Shown here: positions 3,090 through 22,668 of the stretch, piece by piece
How the letters are laid out: the number at the start of each line of letters is the position of its first letter
Position numbering within the stretch: the stretch's first letter is position 1
Assembly (NCBI RefSeq): GCF_005870035.1
Contig: NZ_SWJG01000012.1
Span: forward strand, 1-64,000
Direction: 5' to 3'
Origin: Spirosoma lacussanchae
GTDB taxonomy: Bacteria > Bacteroidota > Bacteroidia > Cytophagales > Spirosomataceae
Length of the DNA: 64,000 bases
Notes under the pieces: model-generated
Seen by the model: the letters and a program-made list of their open reading frames with translations, nothing else
What the model was told of the DNA's origin: nothing
Databases searched by the model: none
Position numbers and translations under genes: made by a program

Positions 3090-3101
3090 ACGAAGTCTGC
3101 T

Positions 3102-3134
3102 AAAAAAAGGCCCGTCAGATGCGTTCCGACGGGC
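3102..3134 (-). terminator. Rho-independent terminator between small ORF and lanB
   Basis: On the minus strand GCCCGTC (3134-3128) pairs with GACGGGC (3116-3110) and is followed directly by a run of seven T (3109-3103). It sits after the stop of the 39-codon ORF and about 20 bases before the LanB start, so it would partly uncouple LanB from upstream genes. A precursor, leaky terminator, modification-enzyme order is common in lanthipeptide loci. Confidence 0.7.
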
Positions 3135-3143
3135 TAAACCTGA

Positions 3144-3263
3144 TTAGTAGGTGAAGATGATGGTTAGATCAATCGTGGTTGGGTACTTGACGGGCCGGGG
3201 GTTTGCTACAGGCATCCGGGTTCCAACTGCCTTCGTTTTCAGGCGCTTTACAGAAGTTGACAT
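3144..3263 (-). CDS. Possible 39-residue peptide, candidate LanB substrate
   Basis: An ATG at 3263 opens a 39-codon frame ending TAA at 3144. It begins MSTSVKRLKTKAVGTRM and ends IDLTIIFTY. It has eight Ser/Thr (two Ser, six Thr) and no Cys, so it could be dehydrated but could not form lanthionine rings by itself. It lies between the LytTR regulator and LanB, 50 bases after the regulator stop and just before a terminator, where a precursor gene would be expected. No leader motif of known families and no strong ribosome site was recognised. It could be a chance frame; position is the main argument. Confidence 0.35.
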   Translation of the reverse strand: MSTSVKRLKTKAVGTRMPVANPRPVKYPTTIDLTIIFTY

Positions 3264-3312
3264 GGGTAAAAAAATTGAAATGGAACATTATAGAAAACTG
3301 GTACTCGCTTCG

Positions 3313-4050: not shown

Positions 4051-5281
4051 GGGTTAGTATAGTTTCGCTCTTTGGGCGAAGCGGGATAGTCAGCCGAACA
4101 TAGAATTGCTCAGACTGATCCTGTATGACCAATTCGTATTGTTGCTTTGGGTAGAGCAGAGCTAATCGGCGTTTTGCATTCTCCAGGCCAATACCGCCAT
4201 CTACCGTGGGTTGGGATGGTGCATCACCTTTGTTATTAGCCACGGTAAACGTCAGCGTACCCACATTCTCCGACAAGTTTATCTCCAGCGTAGTGAGTAC
4301 CCATCCACCTTCATAGACAGCGTTCAGCCCATGTTTAAAGGCATTTTCGACGAACGTAACCAGCAACAGAGGTGGAACCAGCCACTGGTCCATGTGCTCA
4401 TCGGGTTCAGGCAGCGAACAGGTTATCGCGTCGGGCAAGGCGTGCCGGATGCGTTCCAAGTCGATGTAGCCTTTGAGAAAGCGTAACTCGTCAGACAGTG
4501 GCACAAACTCGTGACTGGTACGATAGAGCGTATACCGCATCAGCGTAGAAAGATTGGCCAGCGTGTCAGCGGCCCGGTTATCCCGTCGGTGAATCAGGGT
4601 ATAGATATTGTTGAACGCATTAAGCAAAAAGTGCGGGTTGATCTGCTGTCGCAAAAACTGCAAATCCTTCGTTGTATTCTCTTTTTCCAGTAACAGGTTA
4701 TCTAATTCAAGCTGCTGACGTTGCTTTTCCACGGCCAGTTGTGCCTGATTCCGGGCATACCCGTCCCTGACCGCTTTAATCAACAGCGGTATCAGGATAT
4801 AGGAAATGAATTGCCCGAAGACAAAGAATCCAATCGACGGATTGATGAAGTACTCGTACCAAGGAGCCTGCACGAAAACATCCAGTCGCCGACTCAGGTA
4901 GGCAGGCAGGGGTGCATACCAAGCTTCGGTAAATACCAGCAGCGCATACGTATTCAGGCACATCAAAACGTAGTATGCGATTACCGTTCCCACTGCCAGT
5001 AGTAATCGTTGCGAAGTGCGTTGTGGCCGATAAAGAATGCGCGGTATGAACACGTACCCCAGCAGCCCAAAAGAAAGCAGCGTGGTCAACAGGTGATGGG
5101 TGTTGACCACATAGAGCAGCTCGTCATTCGGCTTATCCGAAAAGGCCCGTCGAAACTGGCTCAGCGTCAGCACGTAGCTGAGACCCCAGAAAACGATATG
5201 CCAAGTGAGCCGCTGCCACGTAACTGGTCGCCGAAAGGCAATAGCTGTCCCGGTATCTTTCTGTAGAGAAGACACAAACAA
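4019..5281 (-). CDS. LytS-type sensor histidine kinase (His_kinase family)
   Basis: The 420-residue membrane kinase has about four hydrophobic segments in the first 170 residues, a coiled coil (about 175-208), the His_kinase motif QQINPHFLLNAFN with phosphoacceptor H217, an N box VENAFKHG (N313) and a glycine-rich GGIGLENAKRRL lid. Kinases of this type pair with LytTR regulators, and the overlapping downstream gene is one. There is no extracytoplasmic sensor domain of note, so the signal may be sensed in the membrane or through the secreted protein encoded just upstream (24-base gap). Confidence 0.92.
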   Translation of the reverse strand: MFVSSLQKDTGTAIAFRRPVTWQRLTWHIVFWGLSYVLTLSQFRRAFSDKPNDELLYVVNTHHLLTTLLSFGLLGYVFIPRILYRPQRTSQRLLLAVGTVIAYYVLMCLNTYALLVFTEAWYAPLPAYLSRRLDVFVQAPWYEYFINPSIGFFVFGQFISYILIPLLIKAVRDGYARNQAQLAVEKQRQQLELDNLLLEKENTTKDLQFLRQQINPHFLLNAFNNIYTLIHRRDNRAADTLANLSTLMRYTLYRTSHEFVPLSDELRFLKGYIDLERIRHALPDAITCSLPEPDEHMDQWLVPPLLLVTFVENAFKHGLNAVYEGGWVLTTLEINLSENVGTLTFTVANNKGDAPSQPTVDGGIGLENAKRRLALLYPKQQYELVIQDQSEQFYVRLTIPLRPKSETILTHEYAPTLFTD

Positions 5282-5304
5282 TAAAACTGTTCTTGTTGAA
5301 GAAT

Positions 5305-5751
5305 TTAGTTTACGCGGCCTACCCGTTTGATGCCTACCGATAGAATAGCCTGAACACCGATTTCACTGTTTTTAGGGCCTGGTGCGGCTGTTGCCCGAAG
5401 CACGATCCGCTCAGGCTGCTTACAGTTGATTTCCCGCTTCACGTAGATGCTCCAGCTCTTGTCAGGACCAGCAATCCAGTCGGCCCCCTGTTCGGTGCCC
5501 TCTACGGGAAACGCACTGACCAACGATAATGAATGATTCAGGTACGTGTATCCCTCAGGAATAGATACCTCTTTCTCGATTACCACCGTCGGTAGTCGAT
5601 CTTTGTTAACCACCTCAATCGGGATAGTCAGCGTTGAATCCGGGGCGGTTTTGTCTCCTGAAGCAGGGGAGGGAGCTAGCGTGGTAAGACTGGCAAACGC
5701 TAAAACACTAACTGGCATTGCCAGTGAACCAAAAAGGGAAAAAAAGGACAT
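5305..5751 (-). CDS. Secreted protein of unknown function upstream of the two-component system
   Basis: I take the ATG at 5751, giving about 148 residues. An upstream in-frame ATG at 5820 would put an operator-like palindrome inside the coding sequence. The chosen start begins MSFFSLFGSLAMPVSVLAF, a signal peptide with likely cleavage after a small-residue stretch. The mature part is rich in beta-forming residues (IPIEVVNKDRLPTVVIEKEV), has a single Cys and no recognised domain. It is first in the operon with the histidine kinase, so it may supply or modulate the signal. Function unknown. Confidence 0.6.
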   Translation of the reverse strand: MSFFSLFGSLAMPVSVLAFASLTTLAPSPASGDKTAPDSTLTIPIEVVNKDRLPTVVIEKEVSIPEGYTYLNHSLSLVSAFPVEGTEQGADWIAGPDKSWSIYVKREINCKQPERIVLRATAAPGPKNSEIGVQAILSVGIKRVGRVN

Positions 5752-5763
5752 AGACACAGAGGG

Positions 5764-5801
5764 CGTTACTCTATTTTGTTTACCCACATGATAGAGTAAC
5801 G
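5764..5801. promoter_or_regulatory. 11-bp inverted repeat with iteron-like half sites
   Basis: CGTTACTCTAT (5764-5774) and ATAGAGTAACG (5791-5801) are perfect inverted repeats separated by 16 bases, directly upstream of the ATG at 5751. The half site contains ATAGAGTA, close to the ATTAGAGTA core of the plasmid iterons 1.2 kb away. It is a plausible operator for the kinase/LanB operon and may be bound by Rep or by a dimeric regulator such as LytTR. Confidence 0.5.
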
Positions 5802-5896
5802 TCACGTATCGGTCGTACATTGTCTATATTTAGATAATTTTTTATCTATTTTTTGATTATACTGATTATTAACGATTTGTATTATAGTATGATTGA

Positions 5897-6778
5897 CTAA
5901 TCGAATAATGTCTTGGGAAAGTCCTGTTTCGATTCCTCCTGTTTTGACTCAGGTGTATCTGGCTTCTTCGCAAGTTCTTCATCAATCGGTTCTGGTGGCT
6001 TTGGTCGGGCATATAACTGCTGCTTACCTGTTTGCGTAACCAGATTAAAATTATTCAGAAAGTTTTCGATCTCTTTGTGCTGGTGCGGATGTTCCCGGCT
6101 GATTTCTCGTGTGTCCACGAAGATGAGATTATATCGTTGCTGCGTGATGACACCCTGCCCGTCTCGTTGTGGGTTTAGCAGATGTTCCTGGGCGTTTGCA
6201 TATTCCTGCTCCGACGTGCGATACTTATAGTTTAACGTAACGTAGTGGTAGTCGCGCCGGTAATTGGAAACGGCAAAATCGTATTGATCCAGATTACGCA
6301 ACACCTCCTGCCAGGTTTTAACCTCTTGTTCCATCATACCGATCTGCCCCTTTTCATCGGAGAGTGCCGCTCCTGACAGTTTTTCAATTTTATCGAGCTT
6401 GATAGCTTGTTTCACGGTTAGTTCATTGATGTAGTTGGATATGCGTTGCTCCTTTTCTTCGCGGCTAAGGTCATTGTTTTTAAGAAGTATGTACTTGTGC
6501 TTCTTAAAAAACGTCAATCGGGTAGCCGGTCGGCCGTAATTTACCAATTTGATGGTTCGACAGTCGAAGTCGGCGTAGTCGGCGAACAGAGACTGATCAC
6601 GGGCATCGACAAAGTAAATCACCCCTGTGCCGTTCCACTCCCCCTCAATGTCCCAGGCATTACGATCCGGCTGAATCTTGTTGACGACTTTCATGAGCTG
6701 AATTAATCCCCGTAGTCGGAGGGCATAGTCAGTAGGGTTATACGATTTTCGTTTGCGAGAGGGTCGTTCGGTAGCCAT
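5897..6778 (-). CDS. Conserved-looking protein of unknown function next to the replication origin
   Basis: The 293-residue protein is basic at the N terminus (MATERPSRKRKSYNPTDYAL), followed by a mixed alpha/beta region (WDIEGEWNGTGVIYFVDARD, TIKLVNYGRPATRLTFFKKHKYILL), a charged helical segment (about 103-165) and a Pro/Glu-rich, probably disordered tail. It has no signal peptide or membrane segment. It is transcribed away from the iteron origin, divergent from rep, a typical place for a replication accessory or copy-control gene. No family was recognised. Confidence 0.7.
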   Translation of the reverse strand: MATERPSRKRKSYNPTDYALRLRGLIQLMKVVNKIQPDRNAWDIEGEWNGTGVIYFVDARDQSLFADYADFDCRTIKLVNYGRPATRLTFFKKHKYILLKNNDLSREEKEQRISNYINELTVKQAIKLDKIEKLSGAALSDEKGQIGMMEQEVKTWQEVLRNLDQYDFAVSNYRRDYHYVTLNYKYRTSEQEYANAQEHLLNPQRDGQGVITQQRYNLIFVDTREISREHPHQHKEIENFLNNFNLVTQTGKQQLYARPKPPEPIDEELAKKPDTPESKQEESKQDFPKTLFD

Positions 6779-6963
6779 AAGTAGTATAGAGGGCAGGTGT
6801 TTTTTAAGTTTACTTTAAAAGTAAACTTAATTTGTCCTTTTTGCCAAACATATTTGATAGCTCCGCACAATTTATTGATTCTTTTAGCAGAAAACTCTCA
6901 ATGCCGAAACTCAAAAGTCAAGTATTGTATTTTAAAAATTGTTCTGATATTGATAATAGTAGC

Positions 6964-7017
6964 TGTGGATAAAACGATACTAACTATCTGAATCACAGCG
7001 ATTAGTAATGTGGATAA
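6964..7017 (-). promoter_or_regulatory. Two perfect DnaA boxes
   Basis: TGTGGATAA occurs at 6964-6972 and 7009-7017; its complement is TTATCCACA, the consensus DnaA box. The copies are 45 bases apart, in the same orientation, and the second ends 10 bases before the first iteron. Confidence 0.8.
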
Positions 7018-7026
7018 CTAGCTGTT

Positions 7027-7187
7027 GGGCAATGAATTAGAGTAGAAGGGCAATAGATTAGAGTAGAAGGGCAATGAATATAAGTCAACATTGGTAACTA
7101 AAGGCAAGAAATTTAAGTAAGAAGGGCAATAGATCAGAGTAGAAAAGGCAATAGATTAGAGTAAAAGGGCAATGAAATAGAGTAATA
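7027..7187 (+). repeat. Seven iterons of about 21 bp (Rep binding sites)
   Basis: Direct repeats start at 7027, 7048, 7069, 7102, 7124, 7146 and 7167, with core GGCAATRRATTAGAGTA. Copies 1, 2, 5, 6 and 7 are nearly identical; copies 3 and 4 are diverged (ending TATAAGTCA or TTTAAGTAA). Most spacings are 21-22 bases, two helical turns, so bound initiators would line up on one face of the DNA. They sit immediately upstream of an AT-rich block and the rep gene. Confidence 0.88.
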
Positions 7188-7418
7188 CGTTTACCTCCCT
7201 ACTCTCAAGGTGGCCATTGCTTTGTATTGGCAAGAAAAAATCGGAAAAAATATTAAATTTTTTACACATACTTAATTTTAAAATTAACTGAAAAGACAGG
7301 CACTTATGAATTAAAAGCAAGATATTTAAGTCATTTAGCCAGCCTTTGCGAGCTGTCCATTGGCAAGATGCGTTTCTTAAAAATTGCTTTTTTGCTTTGC
7401 TTCTTTGTATTTAGGCCT

Positions 7419-8420
7419 ATGAACGATGAAATTGTTATCCGGGAACCCCTAACACTCTTATTGGGTCGGTCAGAATTTTCGTTACACGAACGTCGTCTGT
7501 ACTGGAATATTCTCAAAGCATTGAAGGCGGAGCAGACCTTTGACGTGAAGTCGTACCGGGTAGAGGATCGGCAGTTTCGAATTCATTACTCGGATGTCTT
7601 TGTGGGCGAAAACTCCCATGCTCAGACCAACGTCATTCTAAAAATTCTGGACCGGGTTACCTCGCGGAAGATCAAAATATTCGATCAGGACCGGGGCAAA
7701 TACACCTTCATCGTGCCCATCCCGTACATTCATTACGAGTCGCACAAGGGTTACTTTGATATCGTTGTCAACTCGATGGTCCTGCCTTACTTTATAGATT
7801 TGAGCAAGGGCTACTCGCAGTATGAACTGAACGCAGCCGTTTCCCTCAGTAGCGAGTACTCCCAGCTATTGTTTCCGCGCCTAACGCGGTTCATCGACAC
7901 GGGGCTATGGCGGGTGGAGGTTACGGAACTGCGCGAATTGCTGAACGCTCAGAAGTACGTTCGCTATTCTAATCTTAAACAGATGGTGCTCTCCAACGCG
8001 ATTTCGGAGATTAATCGGAAAACGTATTTAGACATTACCATCACGGAGCAGAAAGAGGGACGGGCGGTGAAGTGGCTTAATTTCATTATCCGTCGGAAGG
8101 GCAAAACCAGTCCCAAAGCCGTTTACTTTGAGTTGGTCAACAAAGACTTGAAGAAAGCCAGCGAACTGTCGTTGGCCGACAAGCAGAAAAAAGCGGCTGA
8201 GTTTCTCTACAATTATCAGTTTACTGACAGTCAGAAGCGCACCATTCTGGAGAGTGAACAATATCTGAACGAGTTTCTGCGGTTGGACAGCATGGTGACC
8301 CATGGCGCGGTTACGGTGGCCACTACACCCACCCGTTACATCGCCGGCATTTTGTTTAAAGATGCTTCCGGCCCTAAGTCGTCGAAAGCCAAACGAGTTT
8401 CTGGTTCTGGTAAAAGCTAA
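7419..8420 (+). CDS. Plasmid replication initiator, Rep_3 family
   Basis: I take the ATG at 7419 (333 residues; MNDEIVIREPLTLLLGRSEF). An upstream start at 7368 would add a hydrophobic stretch unlike the family. The protein has the two winged-helix layout of Rep_3 initiators: an N-terminal part with FSLHERRLYWNILKAL and a central part with ELNAAVSLSSEYSQLLFPRLTRF and WRVEVTELRELLNAQKYVRYSNLKQ. The tail is basic. Monomers bind iterons and open the origin; dimers usually repress rep. The iterons and DnaA boxes lie directly upstream. Its stop overlaps the convergent gene by 4 bases. Confidence 0.92.
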   Translation: MNDEIVIREPLTLLLGRSEFSLHERRLYWNILKALKAEQTFDVKSYRVEDRQFRIHYSDVFVGENSHAQTNVILKILDRVTSRKIKIFDQDRGKYTFIVPIPYIHYESHKGYFDIVVNSMVLPYFIDLSKGYSQYELNAAVSLSSEYSQLLFPRLTRFIDTGLWRVEVTELRELLNAQKYVRYSNLKQMVLSNAISEINRKTYLDITITEQKEGRAVKWLNFIIRRKGKTSPKAVYFELVNKDLKKASELSLADKQKKAAEFLYNYQFTDSQKRTILESEQYLNEFLRLDSMVTHGAVTVATTPTRYIAGILFKDASGPKSSKAKRVSGSGKS

Positions 8421-11243: not shown

Positions 11244-13100
11244 ATGGCCCTTAGCTGGACTGAGATTAAAGACCGTGCCTTGCGCTTTGCCAACGAATGG
11301 AAGACTGAAGCCTCGGAAGATGCCGAAGCCAAATCGTTTTGGGATGATTTCTTCAACGTATTCGGGGTCTCGCGCAGACGGTTGGCCCAATTTGAAAGAG
11401 CCGTCGAGCGACCGGGTCGGAGCAGAGGTTTTGTCGATCTGTTCTGGCCGGGTACGTTGGTCGTCGAACACAAGTCGCGGGGACGCAGCTTAGACGATGC
11501 CTACAAACAGGCAGTCGATTATTTCGTCGGACTGAAAGACCACGAATTGCCCCGCTACGTGCTGGTATCCGACTTCGCCCGCTTCCGGCTCTACGATCTG
11601 GAGGAGAAAGATGGGGAACGTTCTTATCACGAAATTCCGCTGGCCGAGTTGCACCAACACGTCAAGGAGTTCGGCTTCATGCTTGGCTACCAGAAACGTA
11701 CCTATAAAGAAGAGGACCCGGTCAACATTAGGGCGGCTCAGATGATGGGTGGCCTACACGACAAACTGAAAGAAGTCGGCTATGAGGGTCATTCGCTCGA
11801 AGTGTACCTGGTCCGGCTGCTGTTCTGCCTGTTTGCCGATGATACCAGCATTTTCGACAAGGGCATTTTTCAGGACTACCTAACGCAGAACACCCGTGAA
11901 GACGGCTTCGATTTGGGGCAGCAGATGGCAATGCTGTTTCAGGTACTCAACACACCCGCCGACAAACGACCCAAGAACTTAGACGATGCGCTGGCGCAGT
12001 TTCCGTATGTGAACGGGAAGCTGTTTGCCGAAAATCTGATGATCCCGACCTTCGACCGGGCGATGCGACAAATCCTGCTCGACTGTTGCGGACTGGATTG
12101 GGGCCGCATCTCCCCGGCTATTTTCGGATCGTTGTTCCAGTCGGTCATGAACCCGGTCGAACGGCGCAACTTAGGGGCGCATTACACCTCGGAAAAGAAC
12201 ATTCTCAAGGTTATCAAACCGCTGTTTCTGGATGAACTGTGGCAGGAATTCCGAAGCTTACAACCTGATCGCAAGAAGCTGACTGCCTTCCACAAAAAGC
12301 TGTCGGGCCTGCGGTTTCTGGACCCGGCCTGTGGCTGCGGTAACTTCCTCATCATTACGTACCGGGAACTGCGGCTGCTGGAGATTGAAGTCATCAAGGC
12401 GTTGCAGAAAGGGCAGCAGTACGTAACGGTCAACGACCTGGTGCTGGTGGACGTGGACCGGTTCTATGGCATCGAATACGAGGAGTTCCCGGCGCAAATC
12501 GCGCAGGTAGCCATGTGGCTCATCGACCACCAGATGAATATGCGGATTTCGGAGGAGTTCGGGCAATACTACGTCCGGTTGCCACTCCGTAAGTCGGCTA
12601 CCATCGTACACGGCAACGCCCTCCGCACCGACTGGCAATCGCTTCTGCCCGACCCAAAAGAAGAAGAGCCAACCCGTTATAGCTACATCGTCGGCAATCC
12701 ACCGTTCATTGGCTCGAAGATGATGTCGATTCAACAACGCGAAGACATCAAATCAGTCTTTGGGGCTGTCGAAGGAGTTGGCATCCTCGACTACGTGTCT
12801 GGCTGGTACGTGAAAGCGGCCCACTATATGCGTGAAAATCCAGCCACGAGAAGTGCGTTCGTTTCGACCAACTCGATTACGCAAGGCGAACAGGTAAGCG
12901 CGTTATGGAGTGAGATGTTCCGGCAACGAGCGGCAATATTTTTCGCGCACCAAACGTTCCGCTGGAGCAACGAAGCGCGTGGTAACGCTGCTGTTTACTG
13001 TGTTATCATTGGTTATCCCAATGATAACACAGTAAACAGCAGCGTTACCACGAAGGCTATTCGAGTACGATACCGTCCGCTCGGAACCTCACGAGCGTGA
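11244..13100 (+). CDS. MmeI-like restriction-methylation protein, N-terminal part (frameshifted)
   Basis: The 618-codon frame encodes the first two thirds of a single-chain type IIL/IIG enzyme. It has a PD-(D/E)XK-like nuclease (D65, E75, K77 in VVEHKSRG), a helical linker, and an N6-adenine methyltransferase with motif I DPACGCGNF (360-368) and motif IV NPPF (485-488). After FRWSNEARGNAAVYCVIIG (572-590) the frame runs through a perfect inverted repeat, loses register near 13060 and ends RVRYRPLGTSRA. The expected continuation (FEYDTVRSEPHEREV) lies in the +1 frame. Both catalytic domains are intact, but the target recognition part is separated, so activity is doubtful unless frameshifting or a sequence error applies. 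Confidence 0.85.
   Translation: MALSWTEIKDRALRFANEWKTEASEDAEAKSFWDDFFNVFGVSRRRLAQFERAVERPGRSRGFVDLFWPGTLVVEHKSRGRSLDDAYKQAVDYFVGLKDHELPRYVLVSDFARFRLYDLEEKDGERSYHEIPLAELHQHVKEFGFMLGYQKRTYKEEDPVNIRAAQMMGGLHDKLKEVGYEGHSLEVYLVRLLFCLFADDTSIFDKGIFQDYLTQNTREDGFDLGQQMAMLFQVLNTPADKRPKNLDDALAQFPYVNGKLFAENLMIPTFDRAMRQILLDCCGLDWGRISPAIFGSLFQSVMNPVERRNLGAHYTSEKNILKVIKPLFLDELWQEFRSLQPDRKKLTAFHKKLSGLRFLDPACGCGNFLIITYRELRLLEIEVIKALQKGQQYVTVNDLVLVDVDRFYGIEYEEFPAQIAQVAMWLIDHQMNMRISEEFGQYYVRLPLRKSATIVHGNALRTDWQSLLPDPKEEEPTRYSYIVGNPPFIGSKMMSIQQREDIKSVFGAVEGVGILDYVSGWYVKAAHYMRENPATRSAFVSTNSITQGEQVSALWSEMFRQRAAIFFAHQTFRWSNEARGNAAVYCVIIGYPNDNTVNSSVTTKAIRVRYRPLGTSRA
12978..13052. repeat. Perfect 35-bp inverted repeat with 5-base loop inside the MmeI-like gene
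   Basis: Arms at 12978-13012 and 13018-13052 are exact complements and the loop is TTATC. It covers codons 579-603 of the N-terminal fragment. The left arm codes the conserved NEARGNAAVYCVIIG segment; the right arm is simply its complement and gives unfamiliar residues (NDNTVNSSVTT). This fits a template-switch (foldback) mutation or an assembly artefact. The frameshift lies about 8 bases beyond. Confidence 0.9.
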
Positions 13101-13104
13101 AGTC

Positions 13105-14067
13105 GTGACCATCAACCCTTATCTCGTAGAGGGTAGAAACACGGTTGTCGTAAGCCGACAAAAACCACTTTGCCAAGTGCCACAAATCGGCATTGGCAAC
13201 AAGCCGATAGATGGAGGCCACTATCTGTTCACTACCGACGAAAAGCAAGCCTTTATAGCCCAAGAGCCGCGTTCGGAGAAATGGTTTCGGCGTTGGTTAG
13301 GCTCGGATGAGTTCATCAACGGCTACGAGCGTTGGTGCCTCTGGTTAGGCGATTGCCCACCCGCTGAACTACGGCTAATGCCTGAAGCCCTGAAGCGCGT
13401 TCAGGCAGTCAAGCAAACTCGTTTGGCAAGCGTTAGCCCACCGACAAGAAAACTGGCAGAAACGCCAACGCGGTTCCACGTCGAGAATATGCCCAAAAGC
13501 AGCTACCTGATTGTTCCTGAAGTTTCTTCTGAGCGTCGGCGTTATATTCCGATTGGCTACGAAGGTCCTGAAACACTGTCAAGTAATCTGGTTAAAATCG
13601 TACCGAATGCCAGTCTATTTCATTTCGGTGTACTGACCTCAGAGATGCACATGACGTGGGTACGTTACGTATGTGGTCGGCTAAAAAGCGATTACCGATA
13701 CTCAAAAGACATCGTTTACAATAACTTCCCGTGGCCACCGTCGCCGACCGAAAAACAGGTTAAGGACGTAGAAGTAGCTGCTCAGAAAGTACTCGACGTG
13801 CGGGCCTCGTTCGTTGGCAGTAGCCTGGCCGACCTATACGATCCACTGACGATGCCGCCCGCGTTGGTCAAGGCGCATCAGGACCTCGACCGGGCTGTCG
13901 ACCAATGCTACCGCAAGCAAGCCTTCGCCAACGAGACGCGCAGGATCGAGTACCTGTTCGAGTTGTACGAGCAGTACACGGCTCCGCTTATTGGAGCAGG
14001 ATTAGCTTCAAACAGGAGAAAGAGAAAACAGTCAACCGAGAACCCTACTAATCCACAGAAGCCATGA
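13105..14067 (+). CDS. MmeI-like protein, C-terminal part (target recognition and tail)
   Basis: This 320-codon frame is the +1 continuation of the preceding gene. It begins TINPYLVEGRNTVVVSRQKP and contains RRYIPIGYEG, ASLFHFGVLTSEMHMTWVRYVCGRLKSDYRYS and NFPWPPSPTEKQ, typical of the target recognition domain and C-terminal helices of MmeI-family enzymes. The nominal GTG at 13105 has no ribosome site of its own, so it is probably not made separately. The last codons overlap the next gene's ATG (ATGA). Confidence 0.8.
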   Translation: MTINPYLVEGRNTVVVSRQKPLCQVPQIGIGNKPIDGGHYLFTTDEKQAFIAQEPRSEKWFRRWLGSDEFINGYERWCLWLGDCPPAELRLMPEALKRVQAVKQTRLASVSPPTRKLAETPTRFHVENMPKSSYLIVPEVSSERRRYIPIGYEGPETLSSNLVKIVPNASLFHFGVLTSEMHMTWVRYVCGRLKSDYRYSKDIVYNNFPWPPSPTEKQVKDVEVAAQKVLDVRASFVGSSLADLYDPLTMPPALVKAHQDLDRAVDQCYRKQAFANETRRIEYLFELYEQYTAPLIGAGLASNRRKRKQSTENPTNPQKP

Positions 14068-14995: not shown

Positions 14996-15400
14996 ATGCC
15001 TACAAAAAAAACAATTTTAGATGGTCTTTTCGGCCTGATTCTGGGTCAAGCCGAAGACAAAGCGCGGTCCGTTTCCGATGAGTACTTGGTAACGGGTCGG
15101 CGGGGGCGTTCGACTACGTTAAAAATTCGGCATTCAGTCGAAGCCATCCTGGAAAAGCACCGGTACGCCAAGATTGGAAAGACTGTGCAACCCGCCAAAC
15201 GCCTGCAAGCTACAGACTACCGGGACTATCAGACGATGTATCTGGTATATAAGACCAGCAGCGACGCCTTCATCTGCCACTACGAATCGTACTTCATCCG
15301 GGCATTCGCCAAGCGGCTCGATAACAAGCACGAAAATAGCACTGGTCGCCTGGCAATGGTCGAAGACATGAACTATTTGTATGTCGTAGTTGCAGATTAA
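14996..15400 (+). CDS. Small protein with possible GIY-YIG/T5orf172-like fold
   Basis: The 134-residue protein contains YAKIGKTVQPAKRLQATDYR followed by a YLVYKTSS strand and HYESYFIRAF. This resembles the core of GIY-YIG/T5orf172 nucleases (IGKT followed by R-L and a later conserved E, here in YESYFI). A clear GIY tripeptide is not visible, so catalysis is uncertain. It lies between the restriction-associated gene and the CoiA-like gene, in the same direction and with short gaps. Confidence 0.55.
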   Translation: MPTKKTILDGLFGLILGQAEDKARSVSDEYLVTGRRGRSTTLKIRHSVEAILEKHRYAKIGKTVQPAKRLQATDYRDYQTMYLVYKTSSDAFICHYESYFIRAFAKRLDNKHENSTGRLAMVEDMNYLYVVVAD

Positions 15401-15409
15401 CGCGCGTTA

Positions 15410-17029
15410 TTGATGATACAGAAACAACGAGAGGAAACGCAGTACGCCAAAAACATTCAGGGCGAAGAGTTTCATATTTCGGAAGTAGAGCGTGGAAAGA
15501 AGGGCTACTATTGTATTGATTGTGAGCAGGAAATGGTTGCCTGCCAAAGTGAGTTGGACAGAAGCTGGTATTTCAGACACCATGTTACCGATGTCAAAAT
15601 TGAGCGAAAATGCACGTTCTCGAATGAAACCTATCGGCACAAAATCGCCAAAGATGCCCTCCAGCGCATCAAGCAAATCAAAGTGCCAGCCGTTGACAAA
15701 TACGCGCCCAAAGGCACGGACGGCTTGACCCGACTGAGGGAAGCACAGGTAATCCATGCCTATACCGTCGGCATAGAATATCAATTTTATGAAGATGAAG
15801 CCGGACAGATTCGATGGATGAGCAAACCGGATTGGGAAAGAATCGAGCCATCTGGGAAGAAACGTCACATCATCCAACCCGACGTAACTTTCTTCGATCA
15901 GCTTGGCCAGCCTATCCTGTTCATTGAAATCGTCGCCACGCACAAACCCGATGAGGATAAGTTGTTGAAACTGGAGCGGCTGTGCATCGACACCGTTTCC
16001 GTTACCATCCCGAAGGAGTCGGCCACGGCCATTGAGCAAATTTTTTACCATACTGACCGCACCAAATGGCTTTACAACCATGAAGAAAGAACAGCCCGAT
16101 ACGTACCAGTTTCCGGTAGAAATTCAAAAGAGGTTTTACCGATTGATCAACTCCAAAGACGACTTCTTGAGGAATCTGTCAACTGCCGAGCGACGGAAAT
16201 TGGAAACCTTATACGCGCAATTGAACGCTGCCTGGAAAGCGAACAATACCGATCAGTTGAGCAGCACCTTAACGCGGAAGTATCACGAGTTACGGACATC
16301 GCAGCACGAGCTGAACAACAACTGCTCGGCCTTCAGGCATCACACCAGAAGCGGCTTGAAAAAGCAGTTCGTGGCCGCATACTCCCACTTGCAAAAGCGG
16401 CAAGAAGAGTGTCATCGACGGAGCGTGCAGTTAAAGCAAGACGTAAAGACCTGGAAGGACGATATTATAAGAAGAGACACGAACTGGTCCGTGCAGAAGC
16501 AGAATATCGACCGGACTACCAGGACGAAATTGAGCGAATTGCAACGAATCTCATCGAACTTGGAGCAGGAGACGGCTCGATACCAGAACGCCAAGAACAG
16601 CTTGCAGCAGAAACAGCAAGAACTGACGAGCGAATTGGAGAAGCAAAGCGAACAACAGCAGATATTCAACGACGAACAGAAGCGTTGCCAGATGAATTCC
16701 GACAAGCTGAGGGCAGAATGGTCCAAACGTATCGCCAGCAAAAAAAGGCTGTCGGAGCAGATTTTAGACGACAAGCGCAGGCAGATGAAGAAGCTGACGG
16801 ACGAGTACGAACGGAGCTTAGAGAACGACACGAAGGCTATCGAAGAGCAGTGGCTCAAGCAGTTACGCGAGCAGATGGCGAACGAACTGAGCGACTGTCA
16901 CCCCGAATTGTTGAGCTGGTTAAAGCAAGGGGACTTATCGTCGATACATCGCCGAAGTACGCTGCTTTCCAAAGAATCCGAACAGCTTACGAAACTTTTA
17001 AATCAGGGGCTTATAAGAGTTGGCCTTAG
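15410..17029 (+). CDS. CoiA-like nuclease-domain protein with coiled-coil tail (tail overlaps another frame)
   Basis: The 539-codon frame starts ATG at 15410. Residues 1-190 resemble CoiA-type proteins: a small zinc-finger-like part (C35, C38 in YYCIDCEQEM, then HH and C68) and a PD-(D/E)XK-like core (D158 in QPDVTFF, E173 in FIEIVATH). From about residue 225 the frame continues as an Arg/Ala/Glu-rich coiled coil ending AFQRIRTAYETFKSGAYKSW. That second half shares DNA with a different open frame (16080-17084). Codon choice over the shared part favours the other frame, so either both are coding or only the first 225 codons of this one matter. The N-terminal half is confident; the tail is not. 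Confidence 0.65.
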   Translation: MMIQKQREETQYAKNIQGEEFHISEVERGKKGYYCIDCEQEMVACQSELDRSWYFRHHVTDVKIERKCTFSNETYRHKIAKDALQRIKQIKVPAVDKYAPKGTDGLTRLREAQVIHAYTVGIEYQFYEDEAGQIRWMSKPDWERIEPSGKKRHIIQPDVTFFDQLGQPILFIEIVATHKPDEDKLLKLERLCIDTVSVTIPKESATAIEQIFYHTDRTKWLYNHEERTARYVPVSGRNSKEVLPIDQLQRRLLEESVNCRATEIGNLIRAIERCLESEQYRSVEQHLNAEVSRVTDIAARAEQQLLGLQASHQKRLEKAVRGRILPLAKAARRVSSTERAVKARRKDLEGRYYKKRHELVRAEAEYRPDYQDEIERIATNLIELGAGDGSIPERQEQLAAETARTDERIGEAKRTTADIQRRTEALPDEFRQAEGRMVQTYRQQKKAVGADFRRQAQADEEADGRVRTELRERHEGYRRAVAQAVTRADGERTERLSPRIVELVKARGLIVDTSPKYAAFQRIRTAYETFKSGAYKSWP

Positions 17030-17084
17030 TCTGGATGGTTTTTTAGCCAAGTCCGATGTTCACCAGCCCGTTTCAGGTTCGTAA
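16080..17084 (+). CDS. Coiled-coil protein encoded in a second frame over the CoiA-like gene
   Basis: Starting at ATG 16080 (MKKEQPDTYQFPVEIQKRF) gives 334 residues of almost continuous coiled coil (ERRKLETLYAQLNAAW, NSLQQKQQELTSELEKQSEQ), ending in a short globular piece (LLNQGLIRVGLSLDGFL). Codon use looks native: in a sample at 16440-16562 about two thirds of third positions are G or C, against about 40% for the overlapping frame. Of 32 codons ending in T before 17029, only the last (CTT-AGT) is followed by a codon beginning AA, AG or GA, and that pair forms the stop of the other frame. Avoiding stops this way is strong evidence that both frames are, or recently were, maintained. Function unknown. 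Confidence 0.65.
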   Translation: MKKEQPDTYQFPVEIQKRFYRLINSKDDFLRNLSTAERRKLETLYAQLNAAWKANNTDQLSSTLTRKYHELRTSQHELNNNCSAFRHHTRSGLKKQFVAAYSHLQKRQEECHRRSVQLKQDVKTWKDDIIRRDTNWSVQKQNIDRTTRTKLSELQRISSNLEQETARYQNAKNSLQQKQQELTSELEKQSEQQQIFNDEQKRCQMNSDKLRAEWSKRIASKKRLSEQILDDKRRQMKKLTDEYERSLENDTKAIEEQWLKQLREQMANELSDCHPELLSWLKQGDLSSIHRRSTLLSKESEQLTKLLNQGLIRVGLSLDGFLAKSDVHQPVSGS

Positions 17085-17301: not shown

Positions 17302-18225
17302 TTACATCACATTACCTGTATCCTGGCTTGTGAGTTGCTGTTGAGCTTCTGCTATCATAATCTCGGCTGAACGGTTCATCAGGTCTTCGTCCTTGTCCCG
17401 AAGCCGATTGTAGAAAAAATCAAGTATAACGGGGCTTTTACTGCGATGTTCAAAAATTTCATCCTGTAGCCGACGTGCGTTTTCAAACGCGTAGATTTCA
17501 TCACGATTGAATGCAGAACTCCACACGCACTTTGCGTAATTTGCTAATTCATTAAGCCGTTGAGCTGCTTCCCGTTGTTCGGTATACTGTTTCATACAAA
17601 ACTGAAAAAAAGGGGACAGTATACTCGCCACCAGCACAATATTTATAACACTCAAATTAGCTATTACTCCAATCACAATAATCAGTACCGTAACGACGAT
17701 GCCAGCCGTTCGCATATAGCTTGAATACCGCTCACGTAGCCGCGAATCCCACCAACAATTGCTCCGCTGGCAAATTAGCCGACCAATGCCCAAGGGTAAT
17801 GAGCCAATTGAAACCGGATACCAGTCTTTTATTTTCTCAATGTTGGTCGGTATCTTCCGGTGAGCGTCGTAATATGTCAACACCTCTTCGACAGTAATAT
17901 CATCTACCGTTTTTAAAGGCGAAGCTGGAAGCTCAAACACATCGCAATCGAATAACTCCTGAATTTTGGCGGCTTTTGCGCGTTTCTTTTTAATAGCTGG
18001 CTCCAGCACAACAAGGTCAAAAAACAGAACCAATAACCCGAACGCAGCCGCGAAAGGGGCCGTAGCAGTCCATATAATAGCTGCTACTGAAAGGATTATG
18101 GGAGCTATCACGCTCAGGGTGATTTGCCAACCGTGATACACCTTCGCGGCTGAATACAATTCACGTTGAGCCGCGAGCCGCTCCAACTGCTTTTGTTCGT
18201 TTTGTCGAATTGGTATATGGTTCAT
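17302..18225 (-). CDS. S-4TM membrane effector of a CBASS pair
   Basis: I take the ATG at 18225, which overlaps the upstream TGA (ATGA), giving 307 residues. There are two pairs of hydrophobic segments (WQITLSVIAPIILSVAAIIW, FGLLVLFFDLVVL; then GIVVTVLIIVIGVIANL, INIVLVASIL). Family hallmarks are LFDCDVFELP, DWYP and CQRSNCWWDSRLRERY. S-4TM (SMODS-associating 4TM) proteins are predicted to damage the inner membrane when the nucleotide signal binds. It is last in a four-gene minus-strand operon after the CD-NTase. Confidence 0.88.
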   Translation of the reverse strand: MNHIPIRQNEQKQLERLAAQRELYSAAKVYHGWQITLSVIAPIILSVAAIIWTATAPFAAAFGLLVLFFDLVVLEPAIKKKRAKAAKIQELFDCDVFELPASPLKTVDDITVEEVLTYYDAHRKIPTNIEKIKDWYPVSIGSLPLGIGRLICQRSNCWWDSRLRERYSSYMRTAGIVVTVLIIVIGVIANLSVINIVLVASILSPFFQFCMKQYTEQREAAQRLNELANYAKCVWSSAFNRDEIYAFENARRLQDEIFEHRSKSPVILDFFYNRLRDKDEDLMNRSAEIMIAEAQQQLTSQDTGNVM

Positions 18226-19091
18226 CGGCATGGAAAATTTCCGTCGAATAGTAAATCCCAATAGTAGAAAGCGTTGTCAACATTCCCTTTGGTCTCGTAC
18301 TCGCGGGCTTTGTTTGACCGGCCAACAGCCGTGCTTAGCTTTGAGTAAGCGTCTCCCCATTTTGCAAACGTGTCGCAAGGTTCGATAACACCCGAAATAC
18401 CCATTGGATCGGTAATGTCCGGGAGGCCCTCTTTCAGCAGTTTTGTCAGAACGCTATCGACATCCATCGCATAAATAATTGATGATTCATTCTGCGCGAA
18501 TCGCGTTACGTATAATTCGAGGTAAAATGATCGGATAGGCACTGATTTGTAATACTTCCAGGCCTTGATGAGCCGAATCAGTGGTTTAACTCGATAGTTG
18601 AGTCTCACATCCTGCTCCCGAACATATTTATTGTGTGCGTCTGGACTGGATACCATCCAACCGCCCGCTCCGTTGGCGATGTGATAGGAGCGGAAATTGT
18701 TGATTAGCCCGTTAAAACAGCAGGGTGTCACTTCCATATCCTCTGAGCGGTACGTTCCGAACGGAATACACACAGCCGGGCTGTTAACAGCGATTCCGGT
18801 TGTGGCCCAGAACGTATCCTGAAGCTTTTCCTTAATTACGCGTAATGAGGTGGCCGAGTTGTCATACAACCGACGGGAAGGGATTACAGCAAAGTAGTCG
18901 GTATCACTTCTGTGGCGTACACCTGTACCGTTTCCGAATGAACCGGTCTCGAAAAAATTAGTACACTCGAACTTGTTAATCAGGCAACGTTCTACAGATG
19001 ATCTGTGGGACGTGGCTTTGGCATGTTCTCCTGCCAACGGGCATAGTCGTGTTAAGAAGGTGTCAAAACCCTCTGCTACCGTCTTGGGCAT
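18222..19091 (-). CDS. CD-NTase (SMODS nucleotidyltransferase) of CBASS
   Basis: The 289-residue protein has the nucleotidyltransferase core: G50-S51 in TGSFGNGTGVRHRSDTDYF, the acidic pair D63 and D65, and a likely third acid in the SEDMEV segment (D118/E120). A helical C-terminal domain (KPLIRLIKAWKYY, AFYYWDLLF) follows. Such enzymes make cyclic oligonucleotides on phage infection that switch on the partner effector, here the coupled S-4TM protein. No Cap2/Cap3 or HORMA/TRIP13 genes are adjacent, so this is a minimal (type I-like) CBASS. It follows the subtilase gene by 38 bases. Confidence 0.9.
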   Translation of the reverse strand: MPKTVAEGFDTFLTRLCPLAGEHAKATSHRSSVERCLINKFECTNFFETGSFGNGTGVRHRSDTDYFAVIPSRRLYDNSATSLRVIKEKLQDTFWATTGIAVNSPAVCIPFGTYRSEDMEVTPCCFNGLINNFRSYHIANGAGGWMVSSPDAHNKYVREQDVRLNYRVKPLIRLIKAWKYYKSVPIRSFYLELYVTRFAQNESSIIYAMDVDSVLTKLLKEGLPDITDPMGISGVIEPCDTFAKWGDAYSKLSTAVGRSNKAREYETKGNVDNAFYYWDLLFDGNFPCR

Positions 19092-19129
19092 GGTATGGCT
19101 CTAAAAGTTATACAACTACAATGCACTCA

Positions 19130-21505
19130 CTACTTTCCATCTCGCAGACCATTCGTGCGATTGCTAACGTTGATGGTCACTTCGTTGCGTAGTTGAATAT
19201 TGGTATGCTGAAAATTATTGATGGTCAGATTGCGAGTAACCGCGCTATACACGTCATGCCGCTTCATCGGGTCTCGAATCGTGATGATTAAGCAAAAATC
19301 CTGCGACAGAACTTCCCCAGTTTGTAATGAAGTGCTTTCTGCTGCATGAGAAAACAGCCCTTTCAACTCCAAATACCACTTCTTGGGAGCAGTCAGGCTA
19401 CGTACTCGGTTAGCCTCTGTCATTTCCTGTAGGTTGACGGCGTACTTCTTCACCGGATGAAATTTGCCCAAATCGTCGCGAAGCTGCCGTTCCGGTGTAA
19501 ACGGGTGATCAATGTAACGCTGGAACCGGGCTGCGTACATATTTGGTAAAAGCACGTTGTTCGGATTCAGCCGACCAAGCGGGTTAAATATTGTTCTTTT
19601 CGTCGTGTCCCGGCGCTTTACCTGCTCATACGTTCCGAACGACACCGCAATATCTGACTGGCAATACTCGGCCCCCTGATTACTTTCCAGCCTGGGATCA
19701 GTAACCAGTGTTACTGTTATTTCGCCGTAGTATTGCCCAACCTCGTTTACCAGTAAGTCAGGAAATGGGAAGTCGAGTATCTCAATGTACCCTCCACGCA
19801 AAATGTTGTCCTGTAGGATGAGTGTGCTCTCGTAAGGCGTATTGTAAATAATATCGCCAACTGAGCTTGGTAGTCCGAACCCCATTTCTTTCAGCCGCTC
19901 TGCTGGAGAAAGATTCAACTCAGGATGGTACTTGGCTGAGTGAATCGCCAACGCTTTCAGAAGTAGCGGGTCGAACTCGCCATCGACCCGGTGGTGTAAG
20001 CCCGCCAGCAAGGCAGACACGCGTGGGGTCGAAAAACTGGTACCGACGTGCTTAACCACACCACCTGCGACCGAAAAGGAGTTAACCCCTGTTAACGTCA
20101 GCTCTCCAGTCTTCTTTACCCCGGCGTTACCGCCGTAATGGGCTAATTCCGGCTTAATCAATTTATTTGGGCCAAAGCCAATCCTGGAGAAGGGCGACGG
20201 ATACCCTTCCGACACTAAATCGCCTTCCTGCTGGGCATGGGCAATACTCCCAACTACGAGGGATAGCACCGAGTCGGCTGAAATAGGAATTCTACGCTTG
20301 GGTAATGACGACTTAAAATTGTCGCAGTTACCAGCCGACTTACAAATGACGATACCATACTGTTTCTGGAGATCATCTAACGCTTTTCCGAAGTCGGAGA
20401 AATCACGGCTACCACATTCCGTCATTCCGCCCCCCGATAGATTCCACAGCTTTACATCCGGATAGGCACGAATGGCGTTCTGAATGTTTTCCAGTAGCTC
20501 GTCCTCGTCTATACGAACACCGCGTTTAGGAAATACAGTAGCATCCAATAGTTTGAACTCCCCGCCACCTACCCAGTCCTGCCCTTCTAATTCATCACCA
20601 TACAGCAAAACCCCAGCAACAAAGGTGCCGTGTGATCGATCAACCTCGCTTTCATCATAGGCCGTGTACCGGCGTTCATCCAACCAAGGCTTCAGGTGAG
20701 GTATCAGAGCAATACCCGAATCGAGAACTCCTACCGTCAGATATTCTTTTCCGCTGACGGGATTCTTCACCGGCAATGATGCAGTAGGGGTAAGCTCATC
20801 CAGCGTTACCTGATAAGAAGGCATTGGGTCGATTGAGTACAGAGCCTCAAACTCCTGAATTAGTTCCAGTGCGTCAGGACGAACCTGTTCAACCTTGTAA
20901 ACTGTCAGGCCAAACGCATAAGTCGTCTTCTTAAACGAAGTATCATTTGCCCGTAACGTTTCCTCAAATGACTGCTCGATACGTTCGTTGACACGCCGGT
21001 TCGGGAAATTTATAAGCTTAACTTTCAAGGGCGTGGCCTTATCATCTGGCAAATCAATTCGAGGCTGAAAGGGTTTAATAACATCAATGGCAGATAACGC
21101 TACAGGGAATGATATGGGACGCTGTAAATTTTGATCAATGAATTTGACCTGTTCGGTAGAGTCCACCTTAACCAGCAAATCGAGATCATCAGAAAGGCCA
21201 ATCAGGTTGTACTCCTCTTTTCGATTGAACAATTTGGCCACCTCTCTCCGATGCGACTTCGCAACGGCTTCTTCACGTACCGTTACTTCAAGAACTGCTG
21301 GTATGAATTGTCGATCTGGTTGGCGGTCAATCAAAAGCAAGGCGGTCGTATTCATTACATCCCTGAACACTTCTGATTTGGCTTCCAGAAGAGCAGGTGG
21401 GAGCACCCATGAGGGCAGGTCATTACCGCCCCCTCCCTCTGTGCGTCGTTCGTCTTGCGTACCACGTTTGCTGAACAGCTTGATGGGCAGATTCTTAGGT
21501 TCCAT
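19130..21505 (-). CDS. ietS: Subtilisin-like serine protease (IetS-like)
   Basis: The 791-residue S8 protease has the catalytic triad D262 (GVLDSGIALIPH), H292 (DRSHGTFVAG) and S490 (GTSFSTPRVSALLAGL), with the oxyanion Asn in SAGN (N393). There is no signal peptide, so it acts in the cytoplasm. About 250 N-terminal residues and 290 C-terminal residues extend beyond the core. The gene sits 3 bases after an AAA ATPase, the arrangement of IetAS, an ATPase-protease pair reported as anti-phage and earlier tied to plasmid segregation/incompatibility. The symbol rests on domain content and order, not on a sequence comparison. Confidence 0.85.
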   Translation of the reverse strand: MEPKNLPIKLFSKRGTQDERRTEGGGGNDLPSWVLPPALLEAKSEVFRDVMNTTALLLIDRQPDRQFIPAVLEVTVREEAVAKSHRREVAKLFNRKEEYNLIGLSDDLDLLVKVDSTEQVKFIDQNLQRPISFPVALSAIDVIKPFQPRIDLPDDKATPLKVKLINFPNRRVNERIEQSFEETLRANDTSFKKTTYAFGLTVYKVEQVRPDALELIQEFEALYSIDPMPSYQVTLDELTPTASLPVKNPVSGKEYLTVGVLDSGIALIPHLKPWLDERRYTAYDESEVDRSHGTFVAGVLLYGDELEGQDWVGGGEFKLLDATVFPKRGVRIDEDELLENIQNAIRAYPDVKLWNLSGGGMTECGSRDFSDFGKALDDLQKQYGIVICKSAGNCDNFKSSLPKRRIPISADSVLSLVVGSIAHAQQEGDLVSEGYPSPFSRIGFGPNKLIKPELAHYGGNAGVKKTGELTLTGVNSFSVAGGVVKHVGTSFSTPRVSALLAGLHHRVDGEFDPLLLKALAIHSAKYHPELNLSPAERLKEMGFGLPSSVGDIIYNTPYESTLILQDNILRGGYIEILDFPFPDLLVNEVGQYYGEITVTLVTDPRLESNQGAEYCQSDIAVSFGTYEQVKRRDTTKRTIFNPLGRLNPNNVLLPNMYAARFQRYIDHPFTPERQLRDDLGKFHPVKKYAVNLQEMTEANRVRSLTAPKKWYLELKGLFSHAAESTSLQTGEVLSQDFCLIITIRDPMKRHDVYSAVTRNLTINNFQHTNIQLRNEVTINVSNRTNGLRDGK

Positions 21506-21508
21506 CGG

Positions 21509-22606
21509 TTAGGATTTTTGGTTAAAAAAGTTTCTGACTTGCCGGAGTGACGTGTCCAGTATCTCGGCAATGGCCGCCTGCGAAACGCCATTTTCATTCA
21601 GGAAGCCCATCAAAGCTTCCTGAGAAGTTGAATTATGGTGTCGATAGTAGTAGTATTGGAGTAGAAGTTCTTCATGGTCAAGCACCGACTTCTTACGTAG
21701 CACATTCTGGGCAATTGCATTTTGGCAAATCGCCTTAATATCGGCAGGACTGCTACCATTCAGTAGCCTGGCTAATGCTTCCCCTCTCTTGCCTTGTAGC
21801 TCAAAATTTAGCTGAGCCGTTTTCAGAAATAGTTTCAGTAGCTCCAGAACTTCGGCTTCACCAGGAAGAGCTATCTCCACAATACTATTGAACCGTCGCC
21901 AAATAGCCTTGTCTAACAGTTCATGATGGTTTGTGGCCGCGATTAGAATGTTCGATTCCAAATACTCATCGATATTCTGCAACAGGCTATTTACTACTCG
22001 CTTCAGTTCACCCAACTCATGCTGGTCGTCCCGCGCTTTAGCGATAGCGTCAAACTCGTCTAAGAAAAGGACACAAGGTTGTCGGCTGGCAAACTCAAAA
22101 ATTTTACGAATATTCTTGGCCGTATTGCCCAACAAAGAGGATACCAGCGAGTCCAATCGTGCTACCACCAACGGAAGTTGCATATGGTGGGCTATATAGT
22201 GGGCTAAGGTAGTCTTACCACAGCCTGGGGGGCCGTACAACAATAGCGAAGCTTGAGGGTCGATACCTGCGGCCTGAAGTTCACTCCGGTGTTGAATCCT
22301 TCCAATAAAGCCGTCGAGTTTCTGGCGCAGATTCTCCGACAGTATCACTGGAATTTGCTGGTCGGGTTGAGGAATAACCAAGTCCGCAATGTTCATTCGT
22401 GTCTCCTGGTCCACCGGTGCCGTGAATAGTTGATCCATGAAGACCGGCTGGGCTTGCTTACTCTGTAATGCACGAACAATCCGTTCAGCGCCTTTCCTGT
22501 CGCCGGACTTGCTAAGATTTTCAGCCAACAGCCGCGCATAGTTTAGCACCTTGTGCGGGTCTTTGCTTAAACCTCCTTCAATAATCTTTATGATCTCTGT
22601 AATCAT
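21509..22606 (-). CDS. ietA: AAA ATPase partner of the subtilase (IetA-like)
   Basis: I use ATG 22606 (365 residues). The longer TTG start at 22627 falls inside the predicted -7 box. After a helical N-terminal region come Walker A GPPGCGKT (125-132), Walker B LFLDEFD (180-186), a sensor Asn in ATNHHELLDKAIWRRF with following arginines, and a C-terminal helix-turn-helix-like end (GVSQAAIAEILDTSLRQVRNFF). It probably recognises a trigger and controls the protease encoded 3 bases downstream. It is first in the operon ATPase, protease, CD-NTase, S-4TM. Confidence 0.85.
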   Translation of the reverse strand: MITEIIKIIEGGLSKDPHKVLNYARLLAENLSKSGDRKGAERIVRALQSKQAQPVFMDQLFTAPVDQETRMNIADLVIPQPDQQIPVILSENLRQKLDGFIGRIQHRSELQAAGIDPQASLLLYGPPGCGKTTLAHYIAHHMQLPLVVARLDSLVSSLLGNTAKNIRKIFEFASRQPCVLFLDEFDAIAKARDDQHELGELKRVVNSLLQNIDEYLESNILIAATNHHELLDKAIWRRFNSIVEIALPGEAEVLELLKLFLKTAQLNFELQGKRGEALARLLNGSSPADIKAICQNAIAQNVLRKKSVLDHEELLLQYYYYRHHNSTSQEALMGFLNENGVSQAAIAEILDTSLRQVRNFFNQKS

Positions 22607-22624
22607 GCTTGTTAATTTCGTTTT

Positions 22625-22668
22625 CAAAATTACAGTATTCGTACTTAAAATTAATTTATTCGTACTTA
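22625..22668 (-). promoter_or_regulatory. Promoter and direct repeats ahead of the ATPase gene
   Basis: On the minus strand TAATTTTG (22632-22625) matches the TAnnTTTG -7 box. Upstream, ATTCGTACTTA (plus-strand reading) occurs at 22637-22647 and 22658-22668, exactly 21 bases apart, so a regulator could bind both on one DNA face. This would control the whole four-gene defence operon. Confidence 0.5.

Follow-up and report, generated by a model that had tools for sequence, protein, structure and literature searches.

Can about 950 bases of a bacterial chromosome or plasmid encode two proteins in different frames, with both readings preserved by evolution, and what might such a pair of proteins do? 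The question is raised by one locus in the 64,000-nucleotide stretch of Spirosoma lacussanchae DNA that was analyzed as a whole and is called the window here. An earlier note, made from the letters of the window, described a CoiA-like gene (F1) and a second frame (F2) that are both open over the same bases, and suggested that they could be genuinely overprinted genes at a locus of defence type. Both open reading frames are present as described; their coordinates and those of the adjoining genes are collected in Table 1.

Table 1. The F1/F2 gene pair and its neighbours in the window
Feature	Coordinates	Strand	Remarks
MmeI-like type IIG restriction-modification gene, split	11244-13100 + 13105-14067	+	different frames
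Small gene, weakly MUG113-like, directly upstream of F1	14996-15400	+	
F1, CoiA-like	15413..17029	+	538 aa from ATG 15413; alternative TTG 15410 gives 539 aa
F1 residues 1-222			Cys/His-containing CoiA_N-like region and predicted PD-(D/E)XK-like nuclease domain, then coiled-coil arm
F1-only part (predicted nuclease)	15413..16078	+	control region without dual-coding signal
F2 translation initiation region	16060..16091	+	inside F1 codons W-L-Y-N-H-E
F2, nested gene	16080..17084	+	ATG start, 334 aa, +1 frame relative to F1
Dual-coding overlap of F1 and F2	16080..17026	+	947 nt
CBASS cyclase with S_4TM effector, and IetA/IetS	17302-22627	-	adjoining defence systems

The argument made at the outset against a chance opening was a codon count. 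Up to the F1 stop, F2 contains 33 codons ending in T rather than the 32 originally counted; exactly one of them, as had been said, precedes a codon beginning AA, AG or GA, and 36.5% of the F2 codons begin in one of these ways. The other sense frame contains 25 stops over the same overlap. When the synonymous codons of F2 were shuffled in the window, a mean of 11.7 F1 stops appeared across the overlap, and shuffling those of F1 produced a mean of 6.6 F2 stops; in neither direction was any of the 2000 shuffled sequences stop-free (0/2000), so the double opening is not a product of chance.

Homologues and distribution

F1 occurs in 9 of the 198 relative genomes searched, in 10 of the 222 family genomes (one as a fragment and one frameshifted) and in 5 of the 395 class genomes (one as a short N-terminal match only), the own genome being included in each count. 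Among 72,556 plasmid records, seven contained a match, which covered at least 80% of F1 in four; the remaining three were a full-length dual-coding locus of Hymenobacter DG25B (L021) and two distant relatives. F1 had no match in the phage records, and a pattern scan of viral contigs gave 27 pattern matches, none of which was confirmed. The same kind of scan in genome contigs led to 25 confirmed loci from 39 pattern matches, from Hymenobacter, Pontibacter, Rufibacter, Adhaeribacter, Algoriphagus, Dyadobacter, Larkinella, Arcicella, Jiulongibacter, Lewinella, Neolewinella, Saprospiraceae, Prolixibacteraceae, Sunxiuqinia, Paludibacter and other Bacteroidota; going by their record titles, we take all 25 to be from Bacteroidota. 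The occurrence of F1 is patchy and resembles that of mobile genes.

F2 accompanies F1. A protein search recognized it in all nine relative genomes that hold F1 (E values from 3.5e-6 to 2e-181 outside the own genome), and an F2 profile matched 4 of the 395 class genomes, all four of which also hold F1. A profile of the F1 N-terminus produced seven matches in 395 phylum genomes, among them three dual-coding loci that were already known (G000, G193 and G649) and a new one (L069), with 312 F2 codons inside F1. The other three matches, L071-L073, are CoiA-type relatives of 333-354 codons that are without the coiled-coil half, and their +1 frame contains 24-29 stops; two proteobacterial relatives, L022 and L023, likewise have neither this half nor F2.

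The set compared below consists of 32 distinct intact loci, the window included, with L069 as a later 33rd. Dropped from it were duplicates, judged by agreeing coordinates, identities or lengths (L003, L004, L005, L008, L009, L010, L011, L012 and L014), as well as frameshifted (L013, L019), truncated (L047), internally deleted (L048) and distant (L022, L023) copies, and L016, which is short and has one weak match. The earlier note had proposed asking of homologues whether both frames stay open and whether synonymous sites are suppressed. No intact full-length homologue is open in only one frame: the overlap is open in both frames in 32 of 32 loci and in the 33rd, which supports a true overprinted pair, and register is lost only in broken copies (L013 and L019). 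In these two (L013, in G252, at 530-2230, and L019 at 5776-7779), the deposited F1 frame continues into the C-terminal frame of F2, a shift in the sequence, as from an indel, that puts both frames out of register. L048 of Rufibacter sediminis (4782-5661) is missing F1 residues ~88-409, including the usual region of the F2 start, and the frames that remain are open. The deposited gene tables differ in what they list: F2 and not F1 for L021 (plasmid of Hymenobacter sp. DG25B, 6539-7585), and F1 only for the plasmid records L017, L018, L019 and L020.

Open frames and selection on each

Across the 32 loci, F2 is free of stops throughout the overlap, which measures 824-1016 nt, and ends 31-97 nt beyond the end of F1 (55 nt past the F1 stop in the window); the F1+2 frame contains 16-55 stops there. 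Measured as the fraction of the overlap that is open, the F1+1 frame has a median of 1.00 and the remaining four alternative frames have medians of 0.08-0.36, with an extreme of 0.98 in one antisense frame. In the F1-only part, the alternative frames have median open fractions of 0.13-0.31, with an extreme of 0.99. An antisense ORF of 224 codons (15407-16081, minus strand) spans this part of the window; it looks like a chance opening because the antisense medians there are only 0.21-0.31 over the 32 loci. Per-gene shuffling of the synonymous F1 codons introduced on average 4.7-9.4 stops into F2, which stayed open in no more than 2 of the 2000 shuffles at any one locus, and shuffling F2 introduced on average 7.3-18.9 stops into F1, which stayed open in 0 of 2000 at each of the 32 loci. 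Chance opening is ruled out by these codon-shuffle tests.

Both encoded sequences are also conserved beyond what the opposite frame dictates. At F1-aligned codons, the mean BLOSUM score between F2 proteins was 1.02, against 0.15 when shuffled (z 70.8 over 496 pairs; 97% of the pairs above z 3), and the reciprocal test of F1 given F2 gave 0.93 against -0.22 (z 75.5; 100% of the pairs above z 3). Relatedness does not explain this similarity, because the 239 pairs with <25% F1 identity still have a median z of 6.9, and the N-terminal part of F1, which serves as a control, remains close to zero (median z 0.16 over 496 pairs and 0.08 over the 94 pairs with <35% identity). Some similarity excess was also seen for the F1+2 frame in the overlap (median z 3.2), yet that frame is full of stops, and such an excess is expected if the nucleotides are constrained by two frames.

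The pattern of substitutions agrees with this constraint. Between L001 and L002, the changes at the first, second and third F1 codon positions number 14/11/82 over the 210 F1-only codons and 26/6/32 over the 316 codons of the overlap, a suppression at third positions of the kind that was to be checked; in every one of the 15 close pairs listed, third positions change at a lower rate in the overlap. Changes affecting both proteins at once fall below expectation in five of six close pairs (10 against 25.4 expected for L001/L002) and are not depleted in L034/L038 (17 against 16.6 expected). The correlation of codon usage with the flanking genes averages 0.18 (Spearman) for the F1 overlap and 0.13 for F2, F1 being the higher in 15 of 25 loci, a comparison that does not mark either frame as the older. 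Both frames are under purifying selection, each beyond what the other imposes.

The start of F2 and the two products

In 30 of the 32 loci, F2 starts at the same or a neighbouring codon within the F1 motif W-x-[YF]-N-x-E, with ATG in 28 and GTG in 2, and the F1 residue that carries the start varies (N, H, Y, C or R). Conditional on these F1 residues, start codons so placed have a joint probability of 10^-7.4 if the loci are treated as independent, which some (for example L001/L002/L017) are not. The start is displaced in L015 and L046, and the probability and the structure profile use the 30 other loci. The start context has A at -3 in 30 of the 32 loci, at -6 in 25 and at -15 in 30, and in the window at -3, -6 and -14 to -16; no Shine-Dalgarno motif was seen by eye at the F2 start of the window. 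According to a ribosome profiling study of Flavobacterium johnsoniae, initiation is favoured by A at -3, -6, -12 and -13 together with low structure, in a phylum described there as being without Shine-Dalgarno sequences (PMC6847099). Compared with the positions given in that study, the upstream A-rich stretch of F2 lies a few bases further out, and the A at -3 and -6 partly follow from the conservation of Tyr-Asn in F1. The mRNA structure around the F2 start is low (rank 7 of 79 positions) and is not lower than F1 imposes (17 of 30 loci in comparison with synonymous shuffles, p 0.24). The start context is compatible with initiation and is not independent evidence of it.

In an alignment of 24 sequences of the F1 family, C34, C37, H56, C67, P156-D157 and E172 are invariant. 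Eight of these members match Pfam CoiA_N (PF25164) at E<=0.01 (best 8.3e-10), and the F1 of the window matches DUF7830 only, at E 0.0095 and below the cut-off of that family. The AlphaFold2 model of F1 (mean pLDDT 78) has a mixed domain at residues 1-222 followed by helices at 256-275, 277-364, 370-382, 390-486 and 497-531. Foldseek matched the model to, among others, chains of DrdV, BstEII, RecU and YaeQ, which we take to belong to the restriction-endonuclease-like fold class, the top match being a proteasome chain and the best E value 0.09; for the modelled domain, these matches are consistent with a restriction-endonuclease-like fold. In its model (mean pLDDT 85.5, pTM 0.31), F2 forms a rod consisting of a 213-residue helix (57-269) flanked on either side by short helices. 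No Pfam family was found in 24 F2 members at E 0.01, the best Foldseek E value for F2 was 1.1, and a PDB sequence search with F1 and F2 gave matches of a generic coiled-coil kind.

That both products look like plausible coiled coils, as was first noticed by inspection, is borne out by their hydrophobic periodicity in the heptad range, which, in the overlap after F2 residue 75, exceeds the other-frame null for F2 in 30 and for F1 in 32 of the 32 loci. Because the periodicity exceeds that forced by the opposite frame, F1 and F2 are each under selection as a coiled coil. Hydrophobicity correlates between the frames at 0.49 in the real genes and at 0.50 (0.504) after shuffling, so a coiled coil in both frames comes easily to the code. 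The net charges of the F1 arm and of F2 are opposite in 22 of 32 loci (F1 negative and F2 positive in 19, the reverse in 3), a mild tendency that does not favour pairing of F1 with F2 over homomers.

It could be argued that F1 is the only real gene and that the openness and conservation of F2 are by-products of its purine-rich coiled-coil codons. The code does impose part of the pattern, as the hydrophobicity correlation shows, and even an antisense frame, with a median open fraction of 0.36, reaches 0.98 of the overlap in some locus; yet shuffles that preserve F1 disrupt F2, the similarity of F2 persists among the pairs with the least F1 identity, third-position change is suppressed in the overlap, and the F2 start codon is retained while the F1 residue changes. 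We give this reading, which the codon-shuffle tests contradict, next to no credence. The reciprocal account, in which F2 and the nuclease part of F1 are real but F1 continues beyond that part only as a passenger frame, matches the gene table of the Hymenobacter DG25B plasmid at this position, but F1 closes in every F2-conditional shuffle, its similarity far exceeds what F2 imposes, and its heptads surpass the null in every locus; with the F2-conditional tests contradicting it, this account appears vanishingly improbable. Taken together, the comparisons point to dual coding of F1 and F2 as almost certain. How F2 would be produced is a separate matter. Programmed +1 frameshifting from F1 would yield a nuclease-F2 fusion and no free F2 protein, and the F2 frame is indeed open at least 2 codons upstream of its start in each of the 32 loci; the shifted deposited sequences of L013 and L019, with F1 running into the F2 frame, also fit. 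The position of the start codon, kept while the F1 residue varies, and a context compatible with initiation speak against frameshifting, as does the lack of a conserved slippery motif recognizable by eye in the 32 contexts. Moreover, the F2 frame opens just 4-5 codons before the ATG in L069 and L030 and 2 codons before the start in L015, which leaves little room for a shift. We regard frameshifting as improbable and translation of F2 from its own start as very likely.

Genomic setting and a possible defence module

The description of the locus as defence-type is supported by the neighbouring anti-phage genes of the window: a type IIG restriction-modification gene in two ORFs, a CBASS cyclase with its 4TM effector, and IetAS. 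A related type IIG gene on the Fibrella plasmid L017 is also divided into two ORFs (2346-3851 and 3641-5170); the break point and the frame offset differ from those in the window. The small MUG113-like gene has a relative immediately upstream in L017 (84% identity) and a partial one at the L002 edge, and a search of the other loci found no further relative. With PADLOC at 1e-20, 82 neighbour proteins of 23 loci (L024-L046) matched 85 models, a number that counts redundant models and not distinct neighbour proteins, whereas 84 proteins from 18 arbitrary regions, drawn from three genomes only, matched 2; DRT, Iet, type IIG, LmuB, GajA, RmrA and CapP are among the matches listed. No cluster of neighbour genes occurs in more than 4 of the 32 loci, some of which have only ~1.5 kb of flank, and the F1-F2 pair therefore seems to be a module of its own. 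In PADLOC-DB 2.0, F1 had one match (E 0.0067) and F2 seven weak ones (E 0.0038-0.061) to known systems; membership in a PADLOC system was rejected because the core models were not matched.

We propose, with a probability of roughly 0.6, that this overprinted same-strand pair forms a compact two-protein nuclease defence module in which F2, translated from its own start, partners F1; such a module is most likely previously unrecognized. F1 would be a CoiA-type nuclease whose Cys/His-containing N-terminus and predicted PD-(D/E)XK-like core are borne by a long coiled-coil arm. F2 would be a coiled-coil rod made from its own ATG inside the F1 frame by Kozak-like initiation independent of Shine-Dalgarno signals, as in Bacteroidota. 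The rod would bind the F1 arm, perhaps already during the synthesis of both proteins on the same mRNA, and would scaffold or restrain the nuclease until triggered. Situated in defence islands, the module would most likely target phage or other foreign DNA. From sequence we infer the nuclease activity of F1, the anti-phage role, the translation of F2 and the binding of the two proteins; a defence role for the pair is probable, and for a physical F1-F2 complex, the odds appear about even.

Two other functions deserve consideration. In a toxin-antitoxin-like arrangement, F2 would inhibit the F1 nuclease and nesting would make the two inseparable, in keeping with the predicted nuclease-type domain of F1, the co-occurrence of F1 and F2, the several plasmid copies and the broken L013 and L019, which lose both frames together. 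As a long rod, however, F2 is unlike small antitoxins, and this arrangement, which we consider possible but rather doubtful, is hard to tell from the scaffold version by sequence alone. The CoiA_N similarity of F1 and, again, the plasmid copies could instead suggest a part in DNA uptake or in plasmid or mobile-element biology rather than in defence; set against this are the adjoining anti-phage systems of unrelated kinds, the absence of a neighbour common to more than a few loci and the patchy occurrence among relatives and across the class, and we consider such a role unlikely.

The proposed module differs from each of the known systems with which it was compared. In hepatitis B virus, the envelope ORF is described as nested in the replicase ORF (PMC5604429). 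Like F1/F2, viral overprinted pairs have a frame of ~1 kb nested in another with both products maintained, whereas F1/F2 are cellular, on chromosomes and plasmids, extend across a bacterial phylum and have overlapping parts that are both predicted coiled coils. The overlapping pairs nog1/citC and pop/ompA of Escherichia coli (PMC4683798, PMC7457138, PMC7103648) also have an alternative-frame ORF in an annotated gene, a kind excluded by annotation rules. Those pairs are antisense, nog1 having 101 residues and being argued to be recent and pop measuring 603 bp (PMC4683798, PMC7457138), whereas F1 and F2 share a strand, overlap by ~950 bp, have distant homologues and are constrained in each frame. 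An anti-phage system with a CoiA domain was reported from a defence screen in E. coli (PMC9519451); F1 resembles it in its predicted CoiA-type domain, and the defence link is that of the E. coli system. Unlike F1, five distant CoiA-type relatives (L022, L023 and L071-L073) are without the coiled-coil half and F2. F2 also has weak similarity to the SMC-like proteins of Lamassu and JetC (PADLOC LmuB and JetC, E 0.004-0.04), and some F1 members have weak NCBIfam SMC matches (best 7.3e-6), but the weak PADLOC matches look like generic coiled coil. No Pfam ATPase domain was found in F1 or F2, nor an ATPase head in the modelled F1 arm, and membership among SMC/Lamassu-type ATPases is ruled out by the absence of the ATPase domain.

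Very few prokaryotic overlapping gene pairs were known in 2015, according to one report (PMC4683798); a 2020 review mentions many putative same-strand overlaps in bacteria that were claimed not to be under selection (PMC7457138), and fully embedded genes are described as generally not considered significant outside viruses (PMC8665328). No earlier report of the F1/F2 pair was recognized in the literature searched, which was mainly open-access, with bioRxiv preprints outside its scope. The most far-reaching reading, which includes strongly supported, long and ancient same-strand dual coding in cellular genomes, is advanced only tentatively. Preservation of both readings by evolution has seldom been demonstrated outside viruses, and here distant homologues make it possible to test each frame against the other, the part of F1 outside the overlap being the internal control. 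The pair offers a natural model of how dual coding persists, the code passing the hydrophobic pattern of one coiled coil to the +1 frame, and of how a start codon is chosen without Shine-Dalgarno signals. It would also be a candidate anti-phage system that annotation has hidden, with F1 listed alone in four plasmid records and F2 alone in one.
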